Assembly: GCF_021391495.1 (NCBI RefSeq)
Contig: NZ_CP090063.1
Location: 5,208,001 to 5,272,000, forward strand
Direction: 5' to 3'
DNA from: Amycolatopsis acidiphila
GTDB taxonomy: Bacteria; Actinomycetota; Actinomycetes; Mycobacteriales; Pseudonocardiaceae
Length of the DNA: 64,000 bases
Shown here: positions 40,144 to 54,466 of the stretch, one piece after another
Numbering within the stretch: the stretch's first letter is position 1
How the letters are laid out: every line of letters begins with the position of its first letter
Notes under the pieces: model-generated
Database searches by the model: none
Seen by the model: only the letters and a program-made list of their open reading frames with translations
What the model was told of the DNA's origin: nothing
Position numbers and translations under genes: made by a program

Positions 40144-40192
40144 CAGAAGGGAGTGGCCGGTGTCTTACGGCACCGGCCACTCCCTTCTGTCA
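40141..40192. terminator. Bidirectional terminator with a perfect 22-bp stem spanning both stop codons
   Basis: Bases 40141-40162 are the exact reverse complement of 40171-40192, with an 8-base loop. The left arm begins with the TGA of the Amt-like gene and the right arm ends with the TGA of the convergent glutaryl-CoA dehydrogenase gene, so the hairpin is shared by both transcripts. There is no long T-run, as is common for actinobacterial terminators. Confidence 0.85.
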
Positions 40193-41359
40193 CCGGTAGG
40201 CGGACTGTCCGGTGAGTGCCTGCCCCACGACCAGGGTGTGCACCTCGTTCGTACCCTCGTAGGTGAGCACGGACTCGAGGTTGTTCGCATGCCTCAGCGG
40301 CGAGTACTCGAGCGAGATCCCGCTACCGCCCAGAATGGTCCGGCACTCGCGCGCGATCGCGATCGCTTCCCGGACGTTGTTCAGCTTGCCGACACTGACC
40401 TGTTCCGGCCGGAGCAGGTGATCGTCCTTCAACCGGCCGAGGTGCAGCGCCAGCAGCATCGACGTGTTGAGCGAAACGGCCATGTCCGCCAGCTTCTTCT
40501 GGGTCAGCTGGAACGCGCTGATCGGCTTGTCGAACTGGATCCGGGAGTCGGCGTAGGCCAGCGCCGCTTGCAGGCTGTCCCGTGCCGCGCCCACCGCGCC
40601 GAACAGGATGCCGAACCGGGCTTCGTTGAGACAGGCCAGCGGCCCGCCCAGACCCCGGGCTCCCGGAAGCTGCGCGGAGGCGGGCAGCCGCACGTTGTCG
40701 AAACTGAGCTCGGACGTGACCGACGCCCGCAGGGACAGCTTGCGCTTGATGTTGCCGGTGGTGAATCCCGGCGTGCCCCGGGGCACCAGGAATCCCCGGA
40801 TCCCCTCGTCGGTCTGCGCCCACACCGTGGCGACGTCGGCGATACCGCCGTTGGTGATCCACATCTTCGAGCCGTTGAGGATCCAGTCACCGCCGTCGCG
40901 GACCGCGCGGGTCCGCATCCCGGCCGGGTTCGAACCGAAGTCGGGCTCGGTCAGCCCGAAGCACCCGATGGCCTCACCGGCGGCCAGCCGGGGCAGCCAC
41001 TCCAGCTTCTGTTCCTCCGAGCCCCACTTCCAGATGGAGAACATCGACAGCGAGCCCTGCACGGAGACGAAGCTGCGGAGTCCGGAGTCGACGGCTTCCA
41101 GTTCCAGGCACGCCAGCCCGTAGCTGACCGCACTCGCGCCGACGCAGCCGTAGCCCGTGAGATGCATGCCGAGCAGACCCATCTTGCCCAGCTCCGGCAC
41201 CAGCTCGCGGGCGAAGTGCGCGTCCTCGAACCACTCCCCGATGTACGGGCGTACCCGGTCGTCCAGGAACGACCGGACGACGGTCTGGATGTCCCGCTCC
41301 TCCTCGCTCAGCAGCGAGGACACGTTCAGCAGGTCCAGCGGATCCTTCATCAGGCTCAT
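40190..41359 (-). CDS. Glutaryl-CoA dehydrogenase-like acyl-CoA dehydrogenase
   Basis: 389 residues from ATG 41359 (GGAG upstream); an ATG at 41401 overlapping the ALDH stop is also possible. The FAD acyl-CoA dehydrogenase fold shows GCFGLTEPDFGSNPAGM, the catalytic Glu in LTYEGTNEVHTLVVGQALTG and Arg in SGLRSFVSVQGSLSM, which matches the glutaryl-carboxylate-binding Arg of glutaryl-CoA dehydrogenases. The reaction would convert glutaryl-CoA to crotonyl-CoA and CO2. It is the last gene of the run starting with NAMPT, linking that run to a five-carbon dicarboxylate. Confidence 0.88.
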   Translation of the reverse strand: MSLMKDPLDLLNVSSLLSEEERDIQTVVRSFLDDRVRPYIGEWFEDAHFARELVPELGKMGLLGMHLTGYGCVGASAVSYGLACLELEAVDSGLRSFVSVQGSLSMFSIWKWGSEEQKLEWLPRLAAGEAIGCFGLTEPDFGSNPAGMRTRAVRDGGDWILNGSKMWITNGGIADVATVWAQTDEGIRGFLVPRGTPGFTTGNIKRKLSLRASVTSELSFDNVRLPASAQLPGARGLGGPLACLNEARFGILFGAVGAARDSLQAALAYADSRIQFDKPISAFQLTQKKLADMAVSLNTSMLLALHLGRLKDDHLLRPEQVSVGKLNNVREAIAIARECRTILGGSGISLEYSPLRHANNLESVLTYEGTNEVHTLVVGQALTGQSAYR

Positions 41360-41397
41360 GACTTTCTCCAACAGTGTGCTTGGTCCGGAGTGGACGG

Positions 41398-42882
41398 TCA
41401 TGGGGTCAGCGGACCGGAGGACTTCAGGTAGACCGTCTTCGTCGTGGTGAAGAACTCCCGCGCGGCTCTTCCCTGTTCTTTCGGGCCGAACCCGCTTTCC
41501 TTGCTGCCGCCGAAGGGCACGTGCGGGTCGGCACCCGCGGTCTCGGAGTTGATGTGCAGCACACCGACGTCCAGGATCTCCATCGCCGTCGTGACGGCCC
41601 GCAGGTTGTCGGTGAAGACGGCCGCCGCCAGGCCGAAGACGCTGTCGTTGACCAGGTCCAGCGCTTCCCGGTCGCTGCCGGCCCGCCGGACGGTGAGTAC
41701 CGGACCGAAAAGCTCGTCACGCCACAGCTCGTCGTCGCCGGCCAGCTCGATCACGGTCGGCGCCAGGAACGCGCCTTCGGCCCTGGCGCCGGTATAGGTG
41801 GTGCCGCCGGTCAGCACCCGGACTCCCGGCCGATGGGTGGCTTCCGTGACCGCGGCCAGGACGCCATCGCGAGCCTCGCGGGAGACCAGCGGTCCCATTT
41901 CGACGGCGGCGTCGACCGGGTCTCCGACGGTCAGTGCCGCGACCCGCTCGGTGAGCAGCTCGAGGAACTCGTCCGCGATCGCGTCGGTCACGATCACTCT
42001 CGACGTCGCCGTGCACTTCTGGCCGGTGGCGCGGAAAGCGCCGGCCAGCACCTGGTCCACGGCGAGTTCGAGGTTCGCGTCGCCGAGCACCGCGGCCGCG
42101 TTCTTGCCGCCCATCTCGGTCTGGACGGGCCGGGAGAGCGTCCCGCACCGCTCGATCAGCCTTCTGCCGATCGCCGTCGAGCCGGTGAAGGTGACCCGGG
42201 AGATGCCGGGATGCTCGGCCAGCCGGGCACCGAGGGCGCCCTCGCCGATGAGCAGGGACAGCACCCCGGCCGGCAGTCCGGCGCCGACCAGGGCTTCGGC
42301 GAGACGCATCGCGAGCAGCGGCACGGTGCTCGCCGGCTTCCACACGACGGTGTTGCCGTAGGCGAGGGCGGGTGCGATCTTCCAGGCCGGGATGGCGATC
42401 GGGAAGTTGAACGGTGTGATGACCGCGACCGGCCCCACCGGACGATGCATCAGCTGGATCTGCTCCCCCGGCCGGGGCGAGGCGTAGACCTCCCCGACCG
42501 GCCGCGACCCCTCCGAGGCGTAGAACCGGAAGATCTCCGCGGCCCGGCGCACCTCACCGACTCCTTCGGCGCGGGTCTTTCCCTCCTCCCGCGCCAGTTC
42601 CTCGCCCCACGCACCGGCGTGCAGATCGAGCACGGCGGCCGTACGGGCCAGCACCTCACCACGAACCGGGAACGGGGTCGCCGCCCACGACGGGAATGCC
42701 TCGACGGCGCCGCGGACGGCGGCGTCGAGCTCCTCCTCGCCGGCCAGGGTGCCCCGGGCGACGATCTCGGCAGGGCGAGCCGGATTCGTGTCGAGGAGCT
42801 CGGCTCCCGCGGGCTCGCACCACCGGCCCGCGACGAGATGCCGGAGCGAGACTGCCGGCGGCGCGGTGACCGACAGCGTCAT
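41398..42882 (-). CDS. NAD(P)+-dependent aldehyde dehydrogenase
   Basis: 494 residues. The catalytic Cys is in RATGQKCTATSR and the general-base Glu in QTEMGGKNAA; VITPFNFPIAIPAWK holds the conserved Asn, and VTFTGSTAIGRR the cofactor loop. The pattern is that of semialdehyde dehydrogenases such as alpha-ketoglutarate-semialdehyde or succinate-semialdehyde types. Next to a glutaryl-CoA dehydrogenase, glutarate semialdehyde is a plausible substrate (inference). It overlaps the FGD gene by 4 bp. Confidence 0.9.
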   Translation of the reverse strand: MTLSVTAPPAVSLRHLVAGRWCEPAGAELLDTNPARPAEIVARGTLAGEEELDAAVRGAVEAFPSWAATPFPVRGEVLARTAAVLDLHAGAWGEELAREEGKTRAEGVGEVRRAAEIFRFYASEGSRPVGEVYASPRPGEQIQLMHRPVGPVAVITPFNFPIAIPAWKIAPALAYGNTVVWKPASTVPLLAMRLAEALVGAGLPAGVLSLLIGEGALGARLAEHPGISRVTFTGSTAIGRRLIERCGTLSRPVQTEMGGKNAAAVLGDANLELAVDQVLAGAFRATGQKCTATSRVIVTDAIADEFLELLTERVAALTVGDPVDAAVEMGPLVSREARDGVLAAVTEATHRPGVRVLTGGTTYTGARAEGAFLAPTVIELAGDDELWRDELFGPVLTVRRAGSDREALDLVNDSVFGLAAAVFTDNLRAVTTAMEILDVGVLHINSETAGADPHVPFGGSKESGFGPKEQGRAAREFFTTTKTVYLKSSGPLTP

Positions 42883-43934
42883 GCCGGGCTTCCGACGGCG
42901 GCCGCCGCCCTGGCCAACGCGGCCCGCGCGCGCAGGCCGGGCAGCACGTCGGCGGTGAACTGCTCGAGGAACCGGTGCTGGTCGCCGCCCGGGCCGTGCA
43001 GCACGAGGTCGGTGAAGCCCAGGTCGAGATAGCTACCGATCCGCTCGATCACGTCGCCGGGATCGTCGGAGACGATGAACCGGGTGTGCGCGCGGTCCAC
43101 ATTGGCGTCGGCGAGACGTTCCATCTCGAGGGGATCCTCGACGCCGGTCTTCTGCTCGGAGGTGAGCGCGAGGGCGGCCCACCAGTGGCAGTTCGTTCGC
43201 GCCTGCTCGATGTCGCGGTCGTAGGAGACCTTGATCTCGATCATCCGGCGGAGCGCGCCCGGATCGCGGCCGGCTGCCGTGGCCCCCTCCGCCACGTTGG
43301 CGAGCAGGGTCCGGTACAGCTCGGGGTCCTTGCCGCTCGTGCAGATGAACCCGTCGCCGACGCGGCCGGCGAGCTTCGCCGCCAGCGGCCCGGATGCCGC
43401 GACGTAGATGGGCACCGGCTGGTCCGGGCGGTCGTAGACCGTGGCCTTCTCGGTGCGGTAGTAGGTGCCTTCGAAGTCGACGCGTTCCTCGGTCCAGAGC
43501 CGCCGCATCAGCGTGATCGACTCCGCGAGCCGCAGCCGCCGCTCCTTCGGGCCGGGGAACTCGGCTCCCGTGGCCGGGGTCTCGTTCATCGCCTCGCCCG
43601 AGCCGATCCCGAGCACGACCCGGCCGGGATTGAGCGCACCCAGCGTGCCGAAGGCCTGCGCGACGATGGACGGGTGGTACCGCAGGGTCGGCGTGAGCAC
43701 GCTCGTCGCCAGTACCGCGTGCCGGGTGGCGCCGCCGAGCGCGCCGAGCCAGGTCAGCGCGTTCGGCGCGTGGCCGCCGTGGTGCCGCCAAGGCTGGAAG
43801 TGGTCGGACACCGCGATCATGTCGAGCCCACGGTGCTCGGCCTCGACGGAGAACTCGAGCAGCTCCCGTGCGCCGAACTGTTCCGCCGATGCCTTGTAGC
43901 CGATCCTGATGCCGTCACCGGCCGTGCTGGTCAC
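42879..43934 (-). CDS. F420-dependent glucose-6-phosphate dehydrogenase (FGD) or close sugar-phosphate homologue
   Basis: 351 residues from GTG 43934, with AAAGGAC 5 bp upstream. It matches FGD of mycobacteria: GYKASAEQFGARELLEF, the active-site SDHFQPWRHHGGHAP (His and Trp), GSGEAMNE (acidic catalyst), GDGFICTSGK, LTSEQK and TRFIV. The last three keep the Lys/Lys/Arg that bind the sugar phosphate in Fgd1 by my alignment from memory. It would reduce coenzyme F420 with glucose 6-phosphate. It lies 26 bp after the PRPP synthetase gene, an unusual place, and implies that the pathway of this operon needs F420H2. Confidence 0.88.
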   Translation of the reverse strand: MTSTAGDGIRIGYKASAEQFGARELLEFSVEAEHRGLDMIAVSDHFQPWRHHGGHAPNALTWLGALGGATRHAVLATSVLTPTLRYHPSIVAQAFGTLGALNPGRVVLGIGSGEAMNETPATGAEFPGPKERRLRLAESITLMRRLWTEERVDFEGTYYRTEKATVYDRPDQPVPIYVAASGPLAAKLAGRVGDGFICTSGKDPELYRTLLANVAEGATAAGRDPGALRRMIEIKVSYDRDIEQARTNCHWWAALALTSEQKTGVEDPLEMERLADANVDRAHTRFIVSDDPGDVIERIGSYLDLGFTDLVLHGPGGDQHRFLEQFTADVLPGLRARAALARAAAAVGSPA

Positions 43935-43960
43935 GTGCTGTCCTTTCCCGGAAGGTGCTG

Positions 43961-44983
43961 CTAGAAGAGGTGGTTGTGGCCACCGAAGACCTCGCTGACG
44001 GAGTCGTCGGTGAAGATCCGCCGGATCGAGTCGGCGAGCAGTGGGGCGCACGACACGACGTGCACGTTGTCCGGCGCACCGGGCCGCAGCGGGATCGAGT
44101 CGGTGACCACGATCCGTTCGAACGGCGACGCCGCGAGGTTCTCGTAGGCGCGGCCGCTGAAAACCGGGTGCGTCGCGGCGGCGAACACGCGCGCCGCGCC
44201 GGCCCGCATGACGGCTTCACCGGCGGCCCGGAGCGTGCCCGCGGTGTCGATGATGTCGTCGACGATGATCGCGGTCTTGCCTCGGACGTCGCCGATGACG
44301 TGCCCGATCTCGGCGACCTGCTGCTGCGGCCGCTCCTTGTCGAGAATCGCGAGTCCCGCGCCCATCCGGGTGGCGAACTGCTTGTTGAGCTTCACCCGCC
44401 CGGCGTCCGGCGCGACCACGACGAGGTCGTCGGCTCCCCCGAGCTCGGAGAAGTGGTCGGCCAGCATCATCAGCGCGGTCATGTGGTCGACCGGCCGGTG
44501 TGAAAAACCCTGCAGCTGCCCGGCGTGCAGGTCCATCGTCAGCACCCGGTCGACGCCCGCCGCCTCCAGCATCCGGGCCACCAGTCGCGCCGAGATGGGC
44601 TCCCGCGGCGCGGATTTCTTGTCCTGCCGCGAATATCCGTACCACGGGGTGACCGCGATGACCCGGTGTGCGCTGGCGCCGACGGCGGCGTCGACCATCA
44701 CGAGCAGTTCGAGCAGGGCGTCGTTGGCGTTGACGCCGGCCTCCGGGTTGGAGCACATCGGCTGCACCAGGAAGACGTCCGCCCCGCGGATCGACTCCTG
44801 GAACCGGCAGTACACCTCGTCGTTGGAAAAGGTCTTGAGCGTCACCGGCCCGAGGCCGACGCCCAGTTCGGCCCCGATCGCCCGGCCCAGCCCCGGATTC
44901 GCCCGGCCGCAGAACAACATCAGCCGTTTGCGGTAACCCAGGGGCAGGCTCGTGTCGATGGCCGCGGTCGTGCCGACGCTCAT
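43961..44983 (-). CDS. prs: Ribose-phosphate pyrophosphokinase (PRPP synthetase)
   Basis: 340 residues from ATG 44983 (GGAGGCGGCGGG upstream, ATGA overlap with the HAD gene). Key motifs are the ATP/R5P region RFQESIRGADVFLVQP, DLHAGQLQGFSHRPVDH and the PRPP loop AIIVDDIIDTAGTL. It makes PRPP from ribose 5-phosphate and ATP. The location between NAMPT/HAD and FGD, rather than beside glmU as for a housekeeping prs, marks it as a dedicated copy supplying PRPP to the NAMPT-like enzyme. Confidence 0.92.
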   Translation of the reverse strand: MSVGTTAAIDTSLPLGYRKRLMLFCGRANPGLGRAIGAELGVGLGPVTLKTFSNDEVYCRFQESIRGADVFLVQPMCSNPEAGVNANDALLELLVMVDAAVGASAHRVIAVTPWYGYSRQDKKSAPREPISARLVARMLEAAGVDRVLTMDLHAGQLQGFSHRPVDHMTALMMLADHFSELGGADDLVVVAPDAGRVKLNKQFATRMGAGLAILDKERPQQQVAEIGHVIGDVRGKTAIIVDDIIDTAGTLRAAGEAVMRAGAARVFAAATHPVFSGRAYENLAASPFERIVVTDSIPLRPGAPDNVHVVSCAPLLADSIRRIFTDDSVSEVFGGHNHLF

Positions 44984-45630
44984 CCCGCCGCCTCCGATGA
45001 CGCACGAGTGTCCATCAAGGACCTTCCCAGCGCGTACGCCTCGCGCAGATCGTCGCCGTCGTAGCAGACAGCCGCGCGCTCGCGCAGGTTCGCGTTGCAG
45101 TTGACCCCGACCGTGTGGGTCAGGCGGTCGAACAGCAACGTGTCGGAGGTCGAGTCCCCGTAGGCCACGCATTCGGTTTCGGTGAGCCGCAGCTCGTCCA
45201 GCAACCGGAGCGCGATGTCCACCTTGTCCTGCAGGGTCAGCAGGAGGTCCTGGGTGGTCGGCCGTCCGGGCAGCACCTGGGACCCGAAGGTGTGGTGGGC
45301 GCCCCAGCCTTGCAGGCGCCGGACGAAGAAGTGCGGCGACTGCGAGATGACGGCGATGTGCTCGCCCCGGCGCACGATGTCCTCGAAGACCTCGGGCACA
45401 CCCTCGATCCAGGCCGCGGCGACGAATGCCGCGTCGATTTCGGACTCGGGGACGTCGGCCCACAGGGGCAGCATCGCGTCCCAGAAGCCGATGTCACTGA
45501 TCTCGCCCGCCAGCCACGCCCGCTCTATCCGGTCGGCGGGCTCGAAGACACCCAGGTGACGAGAGAGCTCCACCGAAGCGGCCCCGCGCAGCAGGGTGCC
45601 GTCCATGTCGAAGATGTGCAGTCGGGTCAT
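44980..45630 (-). CDS. HAD-superfamily phosphatase (SerB-like HAD-IB)
   Basis: 216 residues. The nucleophile motif is FDMDGTLLRG with Asp8 and Asp10; the second motif is ISQSPHFF, and the metal site GDSTSDTLLFD. A helical cap of the HAD-IB type lies at residues 20-85. It is a phosphomonoesterase; serine phosphate, a nucleotide or a sugar phosphate are all possible. Overlap with prs and position after NAMPT suggest action on a phosphoribosyl compound (inference). Confidence 0.85.
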   Translation of the reverse strand: MTRLHIFDMDGTLLRGAASVELSRHLGVFEPADRIERAWLAGEISDIGFWDAMLPLWADVPESEIDAAFVAAAWIEGVPEVFEDIVRRGEHIAVISQSPHFFVRRLQGWGAHHTFGSQVLPGRPTTQDLLLTLQDKVDIALRLLDELRLTETECVAYGDSTSDTLLFDRLTHTVGVNCNANLRERAAVCYDGDDLREAYALGRSLMDTRASSEAAG

Positions 45631-45669
45631 CAGTGACGATCTCCAGGTTCGTGTGGAAGCGGGCGGGCG

Positions 45670-45703
45670 CCCGCCGCGGCCCGTCCGGCCGGGCCGCGGC
45701 GGG
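45670..45703. terminator. GC-rich hairpin between the NAMPT and HAD genes
   Basis: A 13-bp inverted repeat (45670-45682 with 45691-45703, 8-base loop) lies in the 100-bp gap between NAMPT and HAD. Without a T-run it may act as a partial terminator or RNA-stability element that lowers expression of the downstream genes relative to NAMPT. Confidence 0.35.
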
Positions 45704-45730
45704 GCACCGCGGATCAGGTGGCTGTCGTGC

Positions 45731-47185
45731 TCAGGCTGTCACGGCCAGCTCACTCGACACCGTACGCATCTGCCCTACGTGGTCGATGTAGTACGACTCG
45801 GGGACCTCCTTCTCCGCGTTCGCGATGACCTCGGTGAAGTCCCACTTCTTGAGCAGCTTCCCGTTGCGGAACACCGGCTGCAGCACGTTTTCGGACTCGG
45901 GGATCGAGCCCTTCGGCACCGTGGTGTAGACGCCGTCCTCGTACTTGAGCGCCAACCGGCCCTTCTTCGACGCCTTGAACGACGCCCCGGTCGGTGCCTT
46001 CGCGATGTCGCGCCACTCCCCGTTGACACAGACCGCACTGGCCTTCTGGCCGAAGTTCATGGTGTCGCGGTTCCAGTGCTGCAGGAGCCCGCCGCCCATG
46101 CCGAAAACGGCGTTGTCGGCGGCCAGGCCGCGGCGCTCCATCTCCATGTACACCTCGGGCAGGCTGTGGAAGTTGACCCCGTCCCCCTGCACCACCCGGA
46201 CGAACGGCGGCAGGACCTTGAAGCCCTTGCTGTTGACCTCGTAGCCGAAGGCGTCCATCAGCCACTCGGTGGTGTCCGCGGTGACCTCCACGATGTCCCC
46301 GGAGTCGGGCCGGACGCCGACCAGGCCCGGGAAGCTGCGGATCTGTTCCCTGAGCTCACCGCCGATGATGTTCTTGACGCAGTTCTCGTGGTCGTAGGTG
46401 TCGGTGAGCAGAAGCGCACAGCCTTCCTTGGCGTACACGGTCAGCATGTTGCGCAGCGCGTCGGTCTCGTGCTCGCGGCCCCAGGCGCAGAATCCCGCGT
46501 GCTCGGAGTTCGGACCGGAGTTGGAGACCTTGCCCGCGTTGTAGAAGTGTTTGGCGGCAAGGATTCCGGGGACGGTGTCGCTCTGGTCGAAGTTGACCAG
46601 GTGGGCGAGGCCACCGAGCGCGGCCGACTGCTGCGAGCTGACGCCGCGCGCGCCGTAGTCGTGGAGCGTGTTGCGGATCACCTGCGGGTTGTCCGAGGTC
46701 CGCGCCAGCGCCTCCTTGATGACCATTTTGGACAGCCAGCTGACGGTGCCGATGGTGGTCGGGTACCAGACGGCCCGCAGCAGCGCGGTCTCGAAGAAGC
46801 TGGTCGCCCAGTAGTACTTCGGGTCCGTGTTGATGACCTGGACGAGCACGTTGCGCGCCGGCAGGACGGTGCCCTCCGGGATCGCCTCGATCTCGACCGG
46901 CAGGAAGCCGTCGTGGTCGTTGAGGATGCCGAGCCAGTTCTCCCGGTTGAAGTGCATGCCCTGCTCGCGCACCACGAACTCGGCCTCGTCGATGTCCTCG
47001 AGGGTGATGGGCCGCATCAGGTACTCCCGCAGGAACGCCTGCAGGCCGACGAACTGGGTCACGGGGAACTCGCCGCCACGGGACTCGACGTAGCTCGAGA
47101 CGTACTCCGTGCCCGGCGGGTACAGCGGGTAGTGACAGTGCTTGTAGTTGTCGGTGTTGATGATCAGGTTGTCGAGGTAGCCCAT
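45731..47185 (-). CDS. nadV: Nicotinamide phosphoribosyltransferase (NadV/NAMPT family)
   Basis: 484 residues, near the length of human NAMPT (491). Alignable blocks are NTDNYKHCHYPLYPPGT, SSYVESRGG, YGARGVSSQQSAALGG, HLVNFDQSDTVPG, the His in NSEHAGFCAWGREHE (human H247) and Arg in VRPDSGD (human R311). The Asp that contacts the nicotinamide amide is in FDQSDT. The canonical reaction joins nicotinamide and PRPP to NMN. It is the first gene of a run through prs to glutaryl-CoA dehydrogenase, and operator-like sites precede it. A changed acceptor specificity cannot be excluded. Confidence 0.92.
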   Translation of the reverse strand: MGYLDNLIINTDNYKHCHYPLYPPGTEYVSSYVESRGGEFPVTQFVGLQAFLREYLMRPITLEDIDEAEFVVREQGMHFNRENWLGILNDHDGFLPVEIEAIPEGTVLPARNVLVQVINTDPKYYWATSFFETALLRAVWYPTTIGTVSWLSKMVIKEALARTSDNPQVIRNTLHDYGARGVSSQQSAALGGLAHLVNFDQSDTVPGILAAKHFYNAGKVSNSGPNSEHAGFCAWGREHETDALRNMLTVYAKEGCALLLTDTYDHENCVKNIIGGELREQIRSFPGLVGVRPDSGDIVEVTADTTEWLMDAFGYEVNSKGFKVLPPFVRVVQGDGVNFHSLPEVYMEMERRGLAADNAVFGMGGGLLQHWNRDTMNFGQKASAVCVNGEWRDIAKAPTGASFKASKKGRLALKYEDGVYTTVPKGSIPESENVLQPVFRNGKLLKKWDFTEVIANAEKEVPESYYIDHVGQMRTVSSELAVTA

Positions 47186-47204
47186 CGAGTTCGCTCACCT
47201 TCTA

Positions 47205-47220
47205 CGAGATTCGTTTCTAC
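47205..47220. promoter_or_regulatory. Operator-like site in the NAMPT leader
   Basis: CGAGATTCGTTTCTAC centred on CG shares 11 of 16 bases with the perfect palindrome at 47554, including the whole GTTTCTA half. It lies 20 bp before the NAMPT start codon, where a repressor would block transcription or elongation. Confidence 0.5.
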
Positions 47221-47354
47221 CGACCGGTCCGACTGCCCACTTGAAGCACGACCGAAGTGGCGCCGAGGTACGTGATTCCGGCGGGATGACCGTGGTTACG
47301 AGCCTGTCCCATCCGGTAGGTCTACCGCCAGGGTGAGGCGCGACCCGCAACACG

Positions 47355-47370
47355 ATTTTAACGATTCTAC
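47355..47370. promoter_or_regulatory. Operator-like site upstream of NAMPT
   Basis: ATTTTAACGATTCTAC shares 11 of 16 bases with the 47554 palindrome, with the ATTCTAC half well kept. It sits in an AT-rich stretch that also holds GTAAAAAATTAC (47393-47404), so a promoter is likely nearby. Its distance of about 170 bp from the NAMPT start is compatible with an upstream operator. Confidence 0.45.
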
Positions 47371-47400
47371 TGTGACAGCCACCATAGGTCGAGTAAAAAA

Positions 47401-47451
47401 TTACCCCATTTGCCGCGCCAACAGCTGGTCCACCGAGCCCTGACCGTCCAC
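47401..47451 (-). CDS. Possible leader peptide upstream of NAMPT
   Basis: A strong AAGGAGG site (complement of 47461-47468) stands alone in the 424-bp interval between ribokinase and NAMPT. Two very short frames follow it: GTG 47451 to TAA 47401 (VDGQGSVDQLLARQMG, 16 residues) and GTG 47453 to TAG 47367 (28 residues with six Trp). Spacing suits either. A leader peptide or small protein is possible; there is no independent support. The interval otherwise holds three operator-like sites. Confidence 0.25.
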   Translation of the reverse strand: MDGQGSVDQLLARQMG

Positions 47452-47553
47452 ACGGAACACCTCCTTGAGACGTTGATCAGGGAAAACGGGAAAAACGGAA
47501 CCAATCACCGGATCCGTGAACCTCCGGAGACACCACCGCGACAGCTCGGCGAT

Positions 47554-47569
47554 ATAGAAACGTTTCTAT
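47554..47569. promoter_or_regulatory. Perfect LacI-type palindromic operator
   Basis: ATAGAAACGTTTCTAT is an uninterrupted 16-bp palindrome with the central CG expected of LacI/GalR operators. It lies just past the ribokinase stop and about 370 bp before NAMPT. Weaker versions occur at 47205, 47355, 51459, 51625 and 54451, and half-sites at 38564 and 38574. I take it as the best match to the site of the LacI-family protein encoded at 48545-49573. Confidence 0.7.
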
Positions 47570-47609
47570 TTCCGTTATGAAAACGACCGAAAGCCACCAG
47601 AGGGCGTCA

Positions 47610-48548
47610 TCAGACGGAGTCGAGCGCCGCACGAATCGCCGGTTCGTCCGGCATGCCGTCGCGTGCTCCGACTGCGGCCACCGACAGCGCGGCGGCCGCG
47701 TTCGCCACTCGCACAGCCGGGACGAGAGCCTCGCCCGCGGCCAGTCGCGCGGCGAGCACGCCGTTGAATGTGTCGCCGGCGCCCGTGGTGTCCCGGACCG
47801 TGGCCGGCCTGGGCGGAAGATGTTCGGTGGCCGAATCCGGAGCGACGACCAGCACGCCGTCACCGCCCAGCGTCACGACCACCGCGGCTCCCGTGTGCTC
47901 GCTCAGGCCCCGGGCCTGAACCTGCACATCGGCGCCGAGAGGTCTCTCGTTCCTCACGGCTTCGGAGAGTGTGGCGAGCTCCCCCGCGTTCGGGGTGAGC
48001 AGCGGACCGTACTTCAGCAGATCCGCGACCACGGGAGTCACCGGAGCCGGGTTCAGCACACACGGAATTCCCTCGCCGGCCGCGATCTCGACCGCCGCGC
48101 GCACCGCGGCGGCGGGAATCTCCGTGCTGACGAGAACGCAGCCGAGATCGGGCAGTGCCGCCTCGATCGCCGCGCGGACGTCGCCGGCGGTGACGCGGTC
48201 GTTCGCGCCGGCACCGACGGCGATCTGGTTCTCACCGGACTCGTCCACCACGATCAGCGCCACGCCGGTGGCCACGCCGGGACGAACGGCCACGTCCGCC
48301 ACCCCGATACCCTCGGCGCGCAATTCGGCCAGCGCATCACGGCCGAAATCGTCGTCGCCGACAGCCCCGACATAGCGGACGTGGGCACCGGCCCGTGCCG
48401 CCGCGACGGCCGCGTTGGCCCCCTTCCCGCCGCCGTGCCTGCCCACCGCGGGCCCGACGACGGTCTCGCCAGGACGCGGCAGTCGCGGAGCCGTGACCAC
48501 GAGATCGACGTTGACCGCACCGACGACCACGACACTCGGCGTGCTCAT
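47610..48548 (-). CDS. rbsK: Ribokinase (PfkB family)
   Basis: 312 residues. The N-terminal signature GGKGANAAVAAARAGA, the anion hole and catalytic Asp in DTTGAGDTFNGVLAARLA, and NPAPVTPVV are typical of ribokinases. It phosphorylates ribose to ribose 5-phosphate, the substrate of PRPP synthetase. The start overlaps the LacI stop by 4 bp. There is no ribose ABC transporter or rbsD beside it, so the ribose may arise inside the cell. Confidence 0.9.
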   Translation of the reverse strand: MSTPSVVVVGAVNVDLVVTAPRLPRPGETVVGPAVGRHGGGKGANAAVAAARAGAHVRYVGAVGDDDFGRDALAELRAEGIGVADVAVRPGVATGVALIVVDESGENQIAVGAGANDRVTAGDVRAAIEAALPDLGCVLVSTEIPAAAVRAAVEIAAGEGIPCVLNPAPVTPVVADLLKYGPLLTPNAGELATLSEAVRNERPLGADVQVQARGLSEHTGAAVVVTLGGDGVLVVAPDSATEHLPPRPATVRDTTGAGDTFNGVLAARLAAGEALVPAVRVANAAAALSVAAVGARDGMPDEPAIRAALDSV

Positions 48549-49573
48549 CGGGCGTCATCCGGCGGGCAGACGGTCTCTCGCAGTTGGACTGTCGTCGCCA
48601 GCTGACCGGTCACGGTGCTCTCCTTGCTCTCGAGCAGATCGAACAGGGCGGTGGCCGCCCGGTAACCCATGTCGCGCGCGGGCTGCCGGACACTGGTCAG
48701 CCGCGGGGTGAGCAGCGCGGAGATCGGCATGTCGTCGAAGCCCACGATGCTCACGTCCTCCGGCACCCGCAGCCCGGCCGACTTGCAGTACTCGATCGCC
48801 CCGATCGCCATCAGGTCGTTCGCGCACAGCAACGCCGTCTTCCGGGACCCGGCCGGACCCGCCAGCGCCTGCTCGGCCAGCGCCGCGCCCGAGGCCTGGC
48901 GATAGGTGCCCGCGAACACGGGCACCGAGTCCGGGTCGATCCCGGCGCCGGCCAGCGCCTCGCGGTACCCCGCGAGACGCTGCTGCGCCGTCCACAACGC
49001 CGGCGGCCCGCCGATGATGGCGAGCCGCCGGTGCCCGTGGTCGAGCACATGGGCCGCGACCTCCCGCGCTCCCTTCCGGGAGTCGCAGACGACCGCGGGC
49101 AGGTCCATCCCGGGGATCTGCTCGTCGACCAGGACGACCGGCCCGGAGCGGGCCAGCTGGTAGATCGACGCGGGCATGGAACCGGTGCCCGACAGGTAGA
49201 TCACGCCGTCGACCCGCTGACTCCGCAGCAGCTTGCCCTGGCTCTCCTCGGCCTGTTCGACGGCGTCGGGGACCACCAGGACCACCAGGACGTCGCGTGC
49301 CGACGCGGCTTTCTGCACGCCCTCGGCCACCATCGCGAAGAACTGGTTGGTCAGTTCGGGGATCACCAGTCCGATGGTCGAGGCCGACCGCCGCTTGAGG
49401 CTGCGGGCGGACTCGTTGGGCGAATACTCCAGCAACCGGATCGCGTCCAGCACCCGGTTGCGGCGGTCCGGCGCGACCGGACCACTGTCGTTCAGCACGT
49501 AGCTGACCGTGCTCACCGACACGCCGGCATGTTCAGCGACGTCCTTCATTGTGGGACGACGGCGGGCAGTCAC
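48545..49573 (-). CDS. LacI/GalR-family transcriptional regulator
   Basis: 342 residues from GTG 49573, preceded by GGAGGTGGC. The helix-turn-helix and hinge read TMKDVAEHAGVSVSTVSYVL and SARSLKRRSASTIGLVIP; the periplasmic-binding-protein-like core has VDGVIYL, LLCANDLMAIGA and VSIVGFDDMPIS. It lies in an operon with ribokinase, so ribose or a ribosyl compound may be the effector. It is the prime candidate to bind the ATAGAAACGTTTCTAT-like sites. Confidence 0.93.
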   Translation of the reverse strand: MTARRRPTMKDVAEHAGVSVSTVSYVLNDSGPVAPDRRNRVLDAIRLLEYSPNESARSLKRRSASTIGLVIPELTNQFFAMVAEGVQKAASARDVLVVLVVPDAVEQAEESQGKLLRSQRVDGVIYLSGTGSMPASIYQLARSGPVVLVDEQIPGMDLPAVVCDSRKGAREVAAHVLDHGHRRLAIIGGPPALWTAQQRLAGYREALAGAGIDPDSVPVFAGTYRQASGAALAEQALAGPAGSRKTALLCANDLMAIGAIEYCKSAGLRVPEDVSIVGFDDMPISALLTPRLTSVRQPARDMGYRAATALFDLLESKESTVTGQLATTVQLRETVCPPDDAR

Positions 49574-49584
49574 CGAGCCACCTC

Positions 49585-50364
49585 CTAGGCCTGGGCGCCT
49601 GCGGCCCAGGTGAGAATAGAGGTCCACAGCTGCTGGTAGTGCGGCCAGCCCACGAACTCGGGCGGAGCCCAGTGCGGGGCGAGATCCGAGGCGAACGCCA
49701 CCGACCGCCCCGAGCCGACCTCGCCGACGACGAGCAGGGGGTCGTCCGCGGTGTGTGCCACGACAGTGGCGTGCGGTTTCGCCGTGAGCCGGTTGTAGCC
49801 GAGCAGCAGCGGCCATTCCGACGGCGTCCCGCCCAGCACGGCGTGGCCGGGCTGATCGAACTCGGCCTTGACGCCCTCGGGCACCTCGACGCGGTCGTCG
49901 TGGTCGAGCATCGTCACCGGCAGCACCGGCGCCAGCGGGCTCATCCCGTAGCGCGCGCGGCCGTCGAACCCGGTGAACGACATGTACCCGCCGATCATCA
50001 CCAGGCCACCACCGCCGCGAGTCCAGTCCGCGAGGACGGCGAGCTTGTTCGCGCTGCGCTCCGAGCGCAGGAACGTCTCGTCGGAGAGCAGGAACGAGTT
50101 CGAGCCGATGTCGCTGAGCACCACGACGTCGAACGCGTCGAGCTCCTCGGCTGTTTTCGGGAACCTGGCCGAGATCTCGTGGGCCCGCACGTAGGTCACG
50201 GCGAAACCCGCGCGATCCAGCGCGGCGAGGAACTCCCCCGCGCCTTCCTCGTACTCGGTGGTGTGGAACTGGTCGAAGCCCTTGAGGTGGATCGTGTTCT
50301 TGATCCAGGACTCGCCGGCGACCAGTACGCGCAGCGGCCCGGATCCGGTGCCGGAGTTCGTCAT
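49585..50364 (-). CDS. Class I glutamine-amidotransferase-like protein of unknown function
   Basis: 259 residues from ATG 50364, overlapping the PPOX gene stop by 4 bp. It resembles the uncharacterised GATase-like/ThuA-like family: VLVAGESWIKNTIHLKGFDQ, DAFDVVVLSDIGSNSF, GGGLVMIGGYMSF and GEVGSGRSVAFASDLAPHW. No nucleophilic cysteine occurs at the usual elbow, so glutaminase activity is unlikely. Members often stand beside sugar- or purine-linked catabolic genes. No exact function can be assigned. Confidence 0.7.
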   Translation of the reverse strand: MTNSGTGSGPLRVLVAGESWIKNTIHLKGFDQFHTTEYEEGAGEFLAALDRAGFAVTYVRAHEISARFPKTAEELDAFDVVVLSDIGSNSFLLSDETFLRSERSANKLAVLADWTRGGGGLVMIGGYMSFTGFDGRARYGMSPLAPVLPVTMLDHDDRVEVPEGVKAEFDQPGHAVLGGTPSEWPLLLGYNRLTAKPHATVVAHTADDPLLVVGEVGSGRSVAFASDLAPHWAPPEFVGWPHYQQLWTSILTWAAGAQA

Positions 50365-50885
50365 AGGAGGCGGTCCCCCACGTGTCCGGGCAGCGACCGG
50401 GTCTCGGGCATCGCGATGGTGTTGATCTCCCGCATGTCCCAGCCGATCATCTTGTCCGGTACCAGCTCGTAGTAGCTGCGGCCGGCGACCTCGCCGAACT
50501 CGGCGTACTGCTCGGCGTACGGGTGTCCCACGTAGAAGTACTTGTCGAAGACCAGCCGCCCGAGTGTCGCGAGCAGAGCGGAATCGGTCACCTTCCGCAT
50601 GGTCCCGCTGATGCGCACGCCGCTCACGGTGGCGTACTCCTCGCCGCTGTCGACGAGCGCGGACAGGGCGCGGCCGGCCTGGAAGTTGGCGCCGTGCCGG
50701 CTCGCGGCGTCGATCGGCAGGTAGATCTTCTGCTCGTGCACCACGAACCACAGTGGCGACAGGTAGATCGTCGAGTCCTCGTTGAGCGTGGCGACGCGGA
50801 TGGTCCTCGCCCGCGTCAGGTACGCCCAGCGCTTGTCGCCGCGCAGGGGCTGCAGCTTGCTCGCGGTAATCGGCTTGACGGACAT
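50361..50885 (-). CDS. PPOX-type FMN/F420-binding split-barrel protein
   Basis: 174 residues with start ATG after GAGGAGC. The split-barrel pattern is seen in WAYLTRARTIRVATLNEDS, YLSPLWFVVHEQKIYLP, and GANFQAGRALSALVDSG. This superfamily includes pyridoxamine-phosphate oxidases, flavin reductases and F420H2-dependent reductases; the protein cannot be placed firmly in one. The presence of an FGD gene in the same inferred regulon makes an F420H2-using reductase worth considering (inference). Confidence 0.75.
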   Translation of the reverse strand: MSVKPITASKLQPLRGDKRWAYLTRARTIRVATLNEDSTIYLSPLWFVVHEQKIYLPIDAASRHGANFQAGRALSALVDSGEEYATVSGVRISGTMRKVTDSALLATLGRLVFDKYFYVGHPYAEQYAEFGEVAGRSYYELVPDKMIGWDMREINTIAMPETRSLPGHVGDRLL

Positions 50886-50887
50886 GT

Positions 50888-51343
50888 TCAGCTCCTCAGT
50901 GCCTTCAGCTCGGCGCTGTACTCAGCGGCTTCGACCAGGCCGGCGCGCGGCGACGGACCGGAGCTCCAGAAGAAGACGAACTCCACGCCGGTCGCCTCGA
51001 GCGTGTACTTGTACCCGGCGGGCAGGTAGATGTGCTCGCCCTCGCCGGCCTCCAGCACGATCTTGCGCCCGTCGGCGTCCTCCACCACCAGGTGGATCCT
51101 GCCCTTGAGCACGTAGTGCGTTTCGTCGAAGTCCTTCTGGTCCCAGTGGTAGGGCAGATGATCGGGCTCGCCGTAGCAGTAGCCCTGACGGAAGTACCGG
51201 GCGTCGTCGCGTTCGCGGGACAGGAAGATCGCGGTCGTGATCCCGGAGTTGAACTCGAGCCGGGGCATCTTGTCTATCTCGTCGGGCACGATCACCCTGG
51301 GATAGCGGCGCGCGTTGGGCGCTGCGGGGTCGTAGTCCGCCAC
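50888..51343 (-). CDS. Cupin-domain protein
   Basis: 151 residues from GTG 51343 with GGGGAG upstream. A single cupin barrel is suggested by LPYHWDQKDFDETHYVLKGR and GEGEHIYLPAGYKYTLEA, giving metal-binding His and Glu residues in motif 1 (HW..., ETHYVL) and His in motif 2. It may be an isomerase or dioxygenase or simply a ligand-binding protein. It is the first gene of the operon cupin-PPOX-GATase-LacI-ribokinase (gaps of 2, -4, 11 and -4 bp). Confidence 0.8.
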   Translation of the reverse strand: MADYDPAAPNARRYPRVIVPDEIDKMPRLEFNSGITTAIFLSRERDDARYFRQGYCYGEPDHLPYHWDQKDFDETHYVLKGRIHLVVEDADGRKIVLEAGEGEHIYLPAGYKYTLEATGVEFVFFWSSGPSPRAGLVEAAEYSAELKALRS

Positions 51344-51458
51344 CGTGTTCTCCCCTTTCCTGAGCCGACCGGGCGCGGCGCCCGGCCGGGGTGAGTCAGT
51401 AGTTCGGAACGGTTCCACTCTGCGGCGTTTCCAACAGGTTTCCGCAGTTGAACCCTTG

Positions 51459-51474
51459 GTTGATTCGTTTCTAT
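51459..51474. promoter_or_regulatory. Operator-like site upstream of the cupin operon
   Basis: GTTGATTCGTTTCTAT shares 12 of 16 bases with the 47554 palindrome and keeps the CGTTTCTAT half. It lies 116 bp before the cupin start in the 315-bp divergent interval, which contains no gene I can see and only this site and the one at 51625. Confidence 0.5.
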
Positions 51475-51624
51475 CCTAACCAGAATGCCCCACTTCCGGT
51501 CAAGACCCGAAATCCCACGGCCCCACGCACCCGAAGAGGTGCAGGTCCTGACATTCCTGGTCAGCTCGAGACCGAGCGCGAGCCGATCGCACCTTGACCA
51601 ACCCCAGGCGGAAACCTAGTCTTC

Positions 51625-51640
51625 ATATAAACGATTCTCG
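51625..51640. promoter_or_regulatory. Operator-like site upstream of the CoA-transferase gene
   Basis: ATATAAACGATTCTCG shares 12 of 16 bases with the 47554 palindrome. It ends about 18 bp before the CoA-transferase start codon, close to the expected transcription start, as for a repressor site. Confidence 0.5.
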
Positions 51641-51658
51641 CCCCTCAGGAGTACCACT

Positions 51659-52819
51659 ATGCCTTCGGACGACACCGCGCTCGGATCGCTCCGCGTGCTG
51701 GACTTCTCCCGGGTGCTGGCCGGGCCGTTCGCCACGATGATGCTCGCCGATCTCGGCGCCACCGTGCTGAAGGTCGAGCGCCCCGGCGCGGGTGACGACA
51801 CCCGCTCCTGGGGCCCGCCCTACGACCCGGCCGGTGAAGCGACCTACTTCCAGTCCGTCAACAGGAACAAGACGAGTGTGGCCCTCGACCTGGGCACCGC
51901 CGACGGCGTGGCCGCCGCCCGCGCCGCGGCCTTGGAGGCCGACGTCGTGGTCGAGAACTTCAGGCCGGGCGTGATGGACCGGCTGGGGCTGGGAGCGGCG
52001 CAGCTGCGCGCGGCCAACCCGCGCCTCGTCTACTGCTCGATCACCGGGTTCGGCTCCCGGGGCGGGGCGGCGCTGCCGGGCTACGACCTGCTCGTGCAGG
52101 CGGTCGGCGGGCTGATGAGCATCACCGGCGACCCCGACGGCGAACCGCAGAAGGCCGGCGTCGCCCTGATCGATGTCCTTTCCGGACTGTTCGCCACCGT
52201 GGGCATCCTCGCCGCACTGCGGCACCGGGAGCAGAGCGGCAGCGGCCAGGTGGTCGAGGTCGACCTCCTCTCGAGCCTGCTGGCCGCCCTGGTCAACCAG
52301 GGTTCGGCGTTCACCGCGGGCGGCGTGGTTCCCTCGCGGCTCGGCAACAAGCACCCGAGCATCGCGCCGTACGAACTGCTGCCGTGCGCCGACCGGGACC
52401 TGGTGCTGGCGGTCGGCAACGACCGTCAGTTCGCGGCGCTGTGCGAGGTGCTCGGCGACGCCTCGCTCGCGTCGCGGGAAGAGTTCGCGACCAATCCCGA
52501 GCGGGTTCGCAACCGCGACCTGCTTCGCGCCGCCCTGGAAAAGCACCTGGCTCAGCGCCCCGCAGCCGACTGGGTCGCCGATCTCACCGTGGCGGGAGTG
52601 CCGGCGGGCGTGGTCAACGACATCGCGGGCGCCTTCGAACTGGCCGCCCAGCTGGGACTGTCCCCCGTCGTCGACCTCCCGCGGCCGGACGGGTCCACGG
52701 TCCGGCTCACCCGGAACCCGATCGGCCTGTCCGCGACCCCGCCGCGGTACGAGACCGCACCACCACCGCTGCCCGGCCGGGCAGCCCCGCAGTGGCCCGG
52801 CCGGCCAGATCGTTCGTAG
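51659..52819 (+). CDS. Family III CoA-transferase (CaiB/BaiF)
   Basis: 386 residues from ATG 51659 with CAGGAG upstream. Family motifs are LRVLDFSRVLAGPFATMMLA, DLGATVLKVERPGAGDDTRSW, VVENFRPGVMDRLGLG and the catalytic Asp in GVALIDVLSG. Mammalian SUGCT, a succinyl-CoA:glutarate CoA-transferase, belongs to this family, so glutarate activation for the glutaryl-CoA dehydrogenase of the same inferred regulon is a reasonable proposal. The specificity is not proven by sequence. Confidence 0.88.
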   Translation: MPSDDTALGSLRVLDFSRVLAGPFATMMLADLGATVLKVERPGAGDDTRSWGPPYDPAGEATYFQSVNRNKTSVALDLGTADGVAAARAAALEADVVVENFRPGVMDRLGLGAAQLRAANPRLVYCSITGFGSRGGAALPGYDLLVQAVGGLMSITGDPDGEPQKAGVALIDVLSGLFATVGILAALRHREQSGSGQVVEVDLLSSLLAALVNQGSAFTAGGVVPSRLGNKHPSIAPYELLPCADRDLVLAVGNDRQFAALCEVLGDASLASREEFATNPERVRNRDLLRAALEKHLAQRPAADWVADLTVAGVPAGVVNDIAGAFELAAQLGLSPVVDLPRPDGSTVRLTRNPIGLSATPPRYETAPPPLPGRAAPQWPGRPDRS

Positions 52820-52881
52820 TTCCCGGCATGCCGCGGCGTGGCCCCGGAGAGATCCGGGACCACGCCGCGCGTGCGGATGGG

Positions 52882-54309
52882 TCAGCTGCCGTAACCGAAG
52901 ATCGACTTGACCTCCAGGAACTCCTTCAGCCCGAAGTCCGAGTACTCGCGGCCGTTGCCCGACTGCTTGTAGCCACCGAAGGCGCCGGCGAAGTCCAGGC
53001 CGTTCCCGTTCACGTGCACCATTCCGGTGCGCATCCGGCGAGCGACCGCGCGAGCCCGTTCGACGTCCGCCGACGAGACGAAGCCCGACAACCCGTACAC
53101 GGTGTCGTTGGCGATCCGCACGGCATCGTCCTCGTCCTGGTAGGTGATCAGGGTGATCACCGGACCGAAGATCTCCTCCTGCGCGATGGTCATGTCGTTC
53201 GTGACCCCGCTCAGCACCGTCGGCCGGACGAAGTACCCCTTGTCCAGGCCCGCCGGCCGGCCCGGACCGCCGGCCACGAGGCGCGCCCCCTGGTCGAGGG
53301 CGCTCTGGACGAGCCGCTGCACCTTGTCGTAGGCGGCCTGCGAGATCAACGGCCCGATGGTGACACCGTCGTCCTCGGGATGCCCGACGGTGATCGCCTC
53401 CGCCGCCTTCGCGGCGATCGCCTCCGCCTCGGCCAGGCGGGACTCCGGGATCAGGAACCGCGTGCCTGCGTTGCAGGACTGGCCGGAGTTGGCGCAGACA
53501 TCGCCCATGTCGCGCGGGATCACGGTGGCCAGGTCCGCGTCGTCGAGCAGGATGTTCGCCGACTTGCCGCCGAGTTCCTGGGCGACACGCTTGACCGTCG
53601 GTGCGGCACTCTTGGCCACCTCGACGCCGGCGCGGGTCGAGCCGGTGAACGACACCATGTCGATGTCGGGATGCGCGGTGATGGCCGAGCCGACGGTGGG
53701 CCCGTCCCCGTTGACCAGGTTGAACACACCCGCCGGCACGCCCGCGTCGTGCAGGATCTCGGCGATGAGCACGGCGTTGAGCGGCGCGAGCTCGGACGGC
53801 TTGAGCACCATGGTGCACCCGGCCGCCAGTGCCGGCGCGATCTTGGCGCAGATCAGCAGGGGCGGCCAGTTCCAGGGCGTGATCAGGCCGCAGACCCCGA
53901 TCGGCTCGTGCCTGATCATCGTCGACCCGCGCTGCTCCTCGAACTGGAAGTTCTTCAGCGCGTCCAGCGCGGACGCGAACTGCCCCAGCCCGGCCCCCAC
54001 CTGAGCGGTCCGCGCGAGCCCGGCCGGCGCGCCCATCTCCGCCATCAGGACCCGGGCCAGCTCATCCCCGCGGCTCTGGTAGACCTCGATGATCCGTTCG
54101 AGCAGCGCGATCCGGTCGGCCACCGACGTCGTGGAGAACGTCTCGAAAGCGGCCCGCGCGGCCTTCACGGCGCGGTCCACGTCCTCGGCGCTCCCGAGCG
54201 CCACCTTCGCGATCGCCCGCTCGGTCGACGGGTCGAGCACGTCCAGCGTCGACGAGCCCAGCGGCTCGACCCACTCACCACCGATGTAGAAACGATCAGC
54301 TTTCTGCAT
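52882..54309 (-). CDS. NAD(P)+-dependent aldehyde dehydrogenase
   Basis: 475 residues from ATG 54309 (GAGGAG upstream); an upstream ATG at 54345 would add twelve residues. The catalytic Cys is in CANSGQSCNAGTR and the Glu in AQELGGKSAN; GLITPWNWPPLLI and VSFTGSTRAG are the cofactor-binding blocks. It is not close to the ALDH at 41398, so two different aldehydes may be oxidised. It is convergent with the CoA-transferase gene and has its own operator-like site upstream at 54451. Confidence 0.9.
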   Translation of the reverse strand: MQKADRFYIGGEWVEPLGSSTLDVLDPSTERAIAKVALGSAEDVDRAVKAARAAFETFSTTSVADRIALLERIIEVYQSRGDELARVLMAEMGAPAGLARTAQVGAGLGQFASALDALKNFQFEEQRGSTMIRHEPIGVCGLITPWNWPPLLICAKIAPALAAGCTMVLKPSELAPLNAVLIAEILHDAGVPAGVFNLVNGDGPTVGSAITAHPDIDMVSFTGSTRAGVEVAKSAAPTVKRVAQELGGKSANILLDDADLATVIPRDMGDVCANSGQSCNAGTRFLIPESRLAEAEAIAAKAAEAITVGHPEDDGVTIGPLISQAAYDKVQRLVQSALDQGARLVAGGPGRPAGLDKGYFVRPTVLSGVTNDMTIAQEEIFGPVITLITYQDEDDAVRIANDTVYGLSGFVSSADVERARAVARRMRTGMVHVNGNGLDFAGAFGGYKQSGNGREYSDFGLKEFLEVKSIFGYGS

Positions 54310-54450
54310 CCTCAACTCCTCGGTCGACTCCTCCACCGGCGCCATCCGGCTTGACCTCCTACCGAACCACCGTGGAAAGCTTTATGAACTCAGACGATCC
54401 GCTATATGCCCAGGTCCCTGCAGTTTCATCTCAAGTCTGCGAGCCGGGGT

Positions 54451-54466
54451 ATATAATCGTTTCTAT
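54451..54466. promoter_or_regulatory. Operator-like site upstream of the second ALDH
   Basis: ATATAATCGTTTCTAT shares 14 of 16 bases with the 47554 palindrome, the best of the secondary sites. It lies about 140 bp before the ALDH start in an AT-rich stretch otherwise free of genes (54310-54510). Confidence 0.55.

Follow-up and report, generated by a model that had tools for sequence, protein, structure and literature searches.

PMC3637104 describes two routes of pyridine degradation, one passing through glutaric dialdehyde and the other through succinate semialdehyde. The first of these, a cleavage between N and C2, fits the aldehyde dehydrogenases, CoA-transferase and glutaryl-CoA dehydrogenase encoded by a gene cluster of Amycolatopsis acidiphila (Pseudonocardiaceae) that is the subject of this analysis; a phosphoribosyl front end and cofactor F420 are proposed for the cluster, whereas the passage on the N-C2 route names neither genes nor a ring-activating step. 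The cluster lies in a window of 64,000 nucleotides (positions 5,208,001 to 5,272,000 of contig NZ_CP090063.1, the whole stretch analysed, with coordinates below counted from its first nucleotide) in a genome of one contig and 8.18 Mb. It is probably a mobile gene set for the catabolism of an N-heteroaromatic ring that is first phosphoribosylated, the likeliest ring being unsubstituted pyridine. Confirmation would reveal a hitherto unknown biological means of activating a recalcitrant aromatic pollutant.

Homologous phosphoribosyltransferases with the same catalytic residues occur in NAD salvage cassettes that pair nadV/NAMPT with nadM (Methylosinus OB3b pOB3b3 and Novosphingobium ES2-1 p2). 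The present cluster differs from these in having a phosphatase, a ribokinase and a phosphoribosyl pyrophosphate (PRPP) synthetase in place of the adenylyltransferase, a changed base pocket and catabolic neighbours. A hydride attack by F420H2 on an aromatic ring, as proposed here, is known in actinobacterial catabolism from the degradation of picrate and dinitrophenol by Rhodococcus, Nocardia and Nocardioides (PMC8498797); that system uses a luciferase-like hydride transferase on nitroaromatics, whereas the cluster would use a split-barrel protein on an N-heterocycle handled with ribose. No publication on the cluster was found in the open-access literature, preprints excluded, although a subscription paper could exist. 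The genes of the cluster are as follows.

40190..41401, minus strand: glutaryl-CoA dehydrogenase (GCDH), matching the glutaryl-CoA dehydrogenase structure PDB 3swo at 1.2e-190 and reaching no equivalog cut-off in an NCBIfam search
41398..42882, minus strand: aldehyde dehydrogenase ALDH1, with semialdehyde-type NCBIfam matches, every one under cut-off
42879..43934, minus strand: F420-dependent glucose-6-phosphate dehydrogenase (FGD), TIGR03554 at 420.9 bits, narrowly above the equivalog cut-off of 420
43961..44983, minus strand: PRPP synthetase (PRS), TIGR01251 at 340 bits
44980..45630, minus strand: HAD-IB phosphatase (HAD), TIGR01488 at 52 bits (cut-off 45)
45731..47185, minus strand: NAMPT-like phosphoribosyltransferase with NAMPT_N and NAPRTase domains
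47610..48548, minus strand: ribokinase (RbsK), TIGR02152 at 263 bits, under the cut-off of 300
48545..49549, minus strand: LacI-family regulator, PF00356/PF13377
49585..50364, minus strand: GATase1-like protein (GAT), PF07090 at 8.9e-97
50361..50885, minus strand: split-barrel PPOX/FDOR-like protein, PF01243
50888..51418, minus strand: cupin protein, with weak cupin matches
51659..52819, plus strand: family III CoA-transferase, best NCBIfam model succinate--glutarate CoA-transferase at 369 bits, under the cut-off of 750
52882..54345, minus strand: aldehyde dehydrogenase ALDH2, PF00171 at 7.4e-156

The original prediction described a codirectional run NAMPT-HAD-PRS-FGD-ALDH1-GCDH with 4-bp overlaps at HAD/prs and FGD/ALDH1, flanked by an operon cupin-PPOX-GAT-LacI-RbsK, a family III CoA-transferase and a second aldehyde dehydrogenase. 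All of these genes are present in that arrangement, the run being on the minus strand, and three further 4-bp overlaps join ALDH1/GCDH, LacI/RbsK and PPOX/GAT. The aldehyde dehydrogenases, the enzyme that would activate glutarate and GCDH are all encoded in the cluster, which holds the gene set of a glutarate route. The 100-bp gap between NAMPT and HAD (45631-45730) contains a very strong GC-rich hairpin (z of -3.97 against shuffled sequences), and the six-gene run is therefore not to be taken as one transcript; the hairpin is a possible attenuator or processing site separating NAMPT from the genes downstream.

Seventy-one stretches were compared for the recurrence of these genes beside related NAMPT genes (L021-L089, L017 and the window), which are partly redundant and not independent: two stretches each come from P. 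kujensis, P. dioxanivorans, P. acidicola, P. oceani, P. autotrophica, P. bannensis, P. oroxyli, isolate RYN_179, the LacPavin metagenome-assembled genome (MAG) and Methyloligella GL2, and the clusters of L085 and L086 are almost identical. Near NAMPT, these stretches hold HAD in 60 cases, LacI in 57, PRS and GAT in 54 each and RbsK in 46. Gene order around the NAMPT clade is shuffled between loci while the genes themselves recur, so chance does not explain why they lie together. In the family, all six NAMPT carriers have a GAT homologue of at least 69% identity, which none of the 194 other genomes has, their best reaching 50%. FGD and GCDH were considered as constant members and ruled out, as they are not in every locus; thus the pathway is defined by a NAMPT-HAD-PRS-RbsK-GAT-LacI core that is itself incomplete in some stretches. 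The claim of a run conserved in relatives stands in this form. As for the predicted wiring of phosphoribosyl transfer to F420 and glutaryl-CoA metabolism, the core, an association with F420 and a common operator motif bear it out, while FGD, GCDH and the CoA-transferase prove to be frequent in the window's type of locus and not constant.

In this comparison, the loci fall into two ring-opening types that never overlap. Type I, to which the window belongs, carries the PPOX protein (35 stretches) and type II a luciferase-like monooxygenase (LLM; 19 stretches), the 17 stretches with neither being counted in totals only. A cupin gene adjoins PPOX in 35 of 35 type I stretches. More specifically, GCDH (11 vs 0), the CoA-transferase (14 vs 0), ALDH1 (15 vs 0) and ALDH2 (19 vs 0) occur in type I and never in type II, and an amidohydrolase (11 vs 0), a tautomerase (13 vs 0) and a NIPSNAP protein (15 vs 0) occur in type II and never in type I. 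On plasmids of strains P23 and PD04, type II is flanked by a succinate-semialdehyde dehydrogenase (SSADH) and a formate-dehydrogenase-like gene with fdhD, and each of the six plasmid records that hold an LLM protein at E <= 1e-40 appears among the NAMPT records too. The two types match the two classical pyridine routes. The NAMPT tree interleaves them: Williamsia (II) pairs with Rhodococcus jostii/opacus (I) at 100/99, and L024 (I) with L032 (II) and L055 (I) with L073 (II), both at 100/97, although counts of label changes on the tree are inflated by the 17 unclassed rows. The simplest reading of this interleaving is one substrate and one activation step served by exchangeable ring-opening modules.

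This exchange bears on the possibility that cleavage acts on the free heterocycle and that the phosphoribosyl genes serve only for its detoxification or trapping, or for the repair of cofactor lost through base exchange with pyridine, which would account for their co-regulation. Direct flavin-dependent cleavage of pyridine was reportedly described by Casaite et al. in 2020 for the pyr pathway of Arthrobacter sp. 68b, whose gene set is said to comprise a flavin monooxygenase and reductase, an aldehyde dehydrogenase, an amidohydrolase and SSADH, as in type II. Among the matches listed, no record bears the name Arthrobacter sp. 68b (37 of 37 in one search, 30 of 591 in another). Free-ring cleavage is nevertheless improbable in our estimation, since NAMPT is common to both types while the ring-opening genes swap, and since HAD, GAT, RbsK and PRS accompany NAMPT in most stretches, which looks like through-flux with recycling.

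The original prediction had also offered plain NAD salvage (nadV and prs) beside an unrelated glutarate or lysine pathway as its alternative. Public records do label these proteins nicotinate or nicotinamide phosphoribosyltransferases, and the NAMPT equivalents of H247, R196, R311, D313 and R392, which we take to be the catalytic histidine and the PRPP/phosphate residues, are kept in 71 of 71 rows. As controls, we used six canonical NAMPT loci (44-48% identity, out of 25 plasmid records under 60%). In five of the six, a NadM-type nicotinamide mononucleotide adenylyltransferase/Nudix gene adjoins NAMPT, whereas three NadM queries at E 1e-3 gave no match in the window or L021-L089 (NadD-type homologues were not searched). 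In reciprocal fashion, the cluster's HAD, PRS, RbsK, GAT, LacI, PPOX and cupin are found in none of the six canonical loci, one of which has a CoA-transferase-like match. The NAMPT tree, in which several long branches were flagged and L084 is represented by only 31 residues, splits the 71 pathway rows from the six canonical rows at 100/99.

The base pocket differs as well. At seven positions that presumably surround the base in human NAMPT, the clade has its own residue in 56-69 of 71 rows: Y for F193 (69/71), N for Y240 (60/71), G for V242 (66/71), N for A244 (67/71), A for S248 (69/71), G for T249 (56/71) and G for I309 (66/71). All six controls have the canonical pocket (F193, Y/F240, V/I/L242, A244, S248, T249, V/I309). 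Three findings contradict NAD salvage, namely the absence of any NadM match in the window and L021-L089, the phosphatase in its place and the altered pocket; an operator motif common to NAMPT and the glutarate genes and the presence of the gene in only 6 of 200 family genomes also speak against it. It was rejected after the comparison with the canonical loci, and we assign it a very low probability.

The operator motif was described by a matrix trained on 37 sites of other loci of the same cluster, with the window excluded. In the window, its sites and the one further gene that they bring in, which lies outside the coordinates of the original prediction, are the following.

38573 and 38652: operator-like sites upstream of the Amt-like gene
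38713..40143, plus strand: Amt-family (ammonium-transporter-like) membrane protein, PF00909 at 2.1e-34
47554..47569: perfect palindromic LacI-type operator ATAGAAACGTTTCTAT upstream of NAMPT, with a weaker site from 47355
51459-51474 and 51625-51640: two operator-like sites between the divergent cupin operon and CoA-transferase
54372-54387 and 54451-54466: two operator-like sites upstream of ALDH2

Ten window sites score at least 8 bits, eight of them in the promoters of Amt, NAMPT, cupin/CoA-transferase and ALDH2 and two elsewhere, a placement for which the binomial test was set up post hoc, after the hits had been seen; twenty Markov sequences gave a mean of 1.15 sites and a maximum of 4. 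Across loci, a site scoring 9 bits or more precedes 63 of 75 NAMPT genes, 31 of 44 cupin genes, 13 of 19 CoA-transferase genes and 14 of 22 ALDH2 genes, compared with 4 of 60 HAD, 3 of 49 RbsK and 1 of 39 PPOX genes. It is supported, at the level of sequence, that one operator motif joins the NAMPT operon, the cupin operon, the CoA-transferase, ALDH2 and the Amt-like transporter in a regulon, to which LacI is predicted to bind. The Amt-like protein, with homologues in 6 of the 71 stretches and an operator-like site upstream in four of these six, is a candidate uptake or ammonium-handling member of that regulon.

The association with F420 is confined to type I among the classed stretches. Of 35 PPOX-type stretches, 17 hold genes of F420 metabolism (FGD, CofC/D/E, CofGH or Fno), and of 19 LLM-type stretches none does (p 1.3e-4, a Fisher value that ignores relatedness between stretches); a 6-phosphogluconolactonase gene occurs in 6 of the 35. 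In an Acetobacteraceae MAG (L077), the genes NAMPT-cupin-PPOX-GAT-PRS-FGD-CofE-CofD-CofC-CofGH-ALDH are codirectional; the FGD, CofE, CofD, CofC and CofGH there are each above an equivalog cut-off, the FGD homologue reaching 457 bits, and the one CofH match of that genome maps to this cluster. Genome-wide, CofH was searched in 29 genomes and is present in 16 of 18 type I and 3 of 10 type II genomes, a count of 28 that leaves out the unclassed but positive L045, places L053 in type II by its amidohydrolase, tautomerase and flavin reductase, and treats the sub-cut-off L051 and L052 as misses. Among Proteobacteria, the ratio is 6 of 6 for type I (L043, L044, L046, L068, L069, L077) and 0 of 2 for type II (L059, L062). 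The window's genome has one CofH, away from the cluster, and its cluster FGD is the sole member above the TIGR03554 cut-off, the runner-up scoring 227.6.

The PPOX protein has the split beta-barrel fold (model pLDDT 82), and its best structural match is 1rfe (Rv2991) at 2.4e-11. That entry is listed among the F420H2-dependent FDORs of unassigned substrate in PMC8498797, where the FDOR-B reductases, which share the fold, include the dehydropiperidine reductase TpnL, an enzyme that reduces a nitrogen ring with F420H2. The cluster PPOX differs from the FDOR-B group (TpnL; FDOR 1rfe) in forming a separate subfamily tied to cupin and NAMPT. Genome context favours F420 as the cofactor, and the PPOX/FDOR-like protein is a candidate F420H2-dependent reductase of the ribosylated ring.

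The cluster and its conservation, the exclusive types, the common motif, the altered pocket and the F420 association are supported, and from them we infer the substrate and each reaction as follows. The NAMPT-like enzyme would couple the ring nitrogen to PRPP to give a pyridinium ribotide, from which the HAD phosphatase would strip the 5'-phosphate. In the window's type, F420H2 supplied by FGD would reduce the N-ribosyl ring, probably through the PPOX/FDOR-like protein, and the resulting dihydropyridine riboside would be hydrated and opened to glutaraldehyde, ribose and ammonium, with the cupin as a putative ring-opening or hydration helper and the PF07090 protein as a putative hydrolase of the ribosylated or ring-opened intermediate. 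A role for the latter as a glutamine amidotransferase was dropped, its alignment showing no conserved Cys, and it is for this reason an unlikely glutaminase. ALDH1, acting on glutaraldehyde or glutarate semialdehyde, and ALDH2 would yield glutarate; the family III CoA-transferase would turn this into glutaryl-CoA, although its substrate is uncertain (among its PDB matches formyl-CoA transferase 10uh ranks first and SUGCT 9br7 third), and GCDH would form crotonyl-CoA. Ribokinase would rephosphorylate the freed ribose and the dedicated PRPP synthetase, one of four PRS genes in the genome, would return it to PRPP, with the LacI regulator governing all units. In type II, a flavin-dependent luciferase-like monooxygenase, the amidohydrolase and the tautomerase would instead lead to succinate semialdehyde and formate. 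We are evenly divided on a further proposal, that of a general and mobile form of aromatic activation: a repurposed NAMPT would convert pyridine to an N-ribosylpyridinium that serves two interchangeable ring-opening modules, a reductive one using F420H2 and leading to glutarate and a flavin-oxidative one leading to succinate semialdehyde and formate. Ribose, returned to PRPP by ribokinase and the dedicated PRPP synthetase, would then be a carrier comparable to CoA for benzoate.

The phylogenetic distribution of the NAMPT-like gene is that of an accessory gene, with 6 of 200 family genomes carrying it; the NAMPT_N domain is found in 3 of 396 genomes sampled across the phylum, the window's own counted in. 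A NAMPT profile scan of GTDB species genomes gave 64 loci in 54 genomes of Actinomycetota and Proteobacteria at 67-94% identity, except for one 31-residue edge fragment, and its two strict peptide patterns let more distant members escape. Relatives at 60-76% identity lie on 12 plasmids, and plasmid carriers include Rhodococcus pyridinivorans P23, Rhodococcus sp. PD04 (coking-plant wastewater) and Arthrobacter crystallopoietes, whose plasmid is predicted to be conjugative. P. dioxanivorans CB1190, P. sulfidoxydans and A. crystallopoietes are culturable carriers from the environment. The cluster appears to be a mobile catabolic gene set. A pathway that makes a ribosylated natural product or an analogue of a cofactor would also bring together a PRPP synthetase, a phosphoribosyltransferase and a phosphatase, which co-occur in pathways to ribosylated products, but we give it only a slight chance: the downstream genes are catabolic (GCDH, CoA-transferase, SSADH, formate-dehydrogenase-like), several copies are plasmid-borne, and no biosynthetic scaffold family stood out among the shared families.

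Several observations weigh against catabolism of pyridine through a ribotide. If type II is the pyr system acting on free pyridine, ribosylation would not be obligatory there and the front end would be used otherwise. GCDH and FGD are each found in just 11 of 35 PPOX-type stretches, and HAD is missing from 5, RbsK from 10, GAT from 5, PRS from 6 and LacI from 3 of them, some of them because the stretch is cut short; L077 is without HAD and without LacI. The window cluster has no ribose-releasing enzyme, the genome holding two nucleoside hydrolases elsewhere. The operator matrix still hit the six canonical NAMPT loci, which lack this cluster, 8 times in 104 kb, the figure for the 71 stretches being 358 in 1347 kb. 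CofH falls under threshold in L058, a type I MAG of the Solirubrobacterales, and in the type I genome of Millisia brevis (L066), three type II genomes are positive, and the PPOX fold matches FMN-, FAD- and heme-binding structures as well as F420-bound ones (5jv4, 4qvb, 5jab). The carriers are tied to pyridine by species or habitat only. Moreover, PMC3637104 states that the pyridine ring is hydroxylated by strains of R. opacus and A. crystallopoietes, both of them cluster-carrying species here. In PMC10005059, 2 of 9 Rhodococcus strains grew on pyridine; R. ruber IEGM 231 and R. rhodochrous IEGM 757 are growers, and the tested R. pyridinivorans, R. jostii and R. aetherivorans strains are not. 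Finally, the D219 equivalent is kept in 69 of 71 NAMPT rows. In human NAMPT this residue presumably binds the amide of nicotinamide, and it is not needed for plain pyridine.

The retained D219 equivalent is also an argument for the same ribose-primed pathway acting on a substituted N-heterocycle as its natural substrate, such as a picoline, nicotinamide, a hydroxy- or aminopyridine or another azine. Further to this, sister NAMPTs (60-62% identity) on the Rhodococcus plasmids ZPP and DK176 (L088, L089) sit among doubled cupin/PPOX genes, accompanied by 6-phosphogluconolactonase, CofC/CofE/CofH and a nucleoside hydrolase, and on DK176 alone by two acyl-CoA dehydrogenases, together with two CoA-transferases; GAT, RbsK and LacI were looked for in L088 and L089 and none was found. 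These neighbourhoods suggest that other substrates exist in the wider family, and that L088 and L089 probably carry out related chemistry on another heterocycle. Set against a substituted substrate, the end enzymes of both types cover the five ring carbons (as glutarate, or as succinate semialdehyde and formate), and among the shared gene families of the loci no carboxamide-, hydroxyl- or amine-handling family stood out. A substituted ring seems to us unlikely, yet worth serious consideration, and unsubstituted pyridine is retained as the preferred substrate.

In P. dioxanivorans CB1190 (L013-L015, G169 C1 2283000-2340000), three full NAMPT genes and a broken NAMPT fragment lie within about 40 kb, and broken FGD, HAD, cupin and GAT pieces in the same region are signs of repeated cluster gain and decay. 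In Methyloligella sp. GL2 (L069/L070), two near-identical NAMPT genes bracket one type I cluster, with ABC transporter genes (named by eye) further downstream. Elsewhere in the window, 33554-38252 encodes a Rieske oxygenase (LigXa_C), a 2Fe-2S reductase and an IclR regulator and looks like a separate aromatic-degradation operon, and at 60340-62181 a cyclic-nucleotide-binding domain is fused to a pyridine-nucleotide-disulphide oxidoreductase domain.

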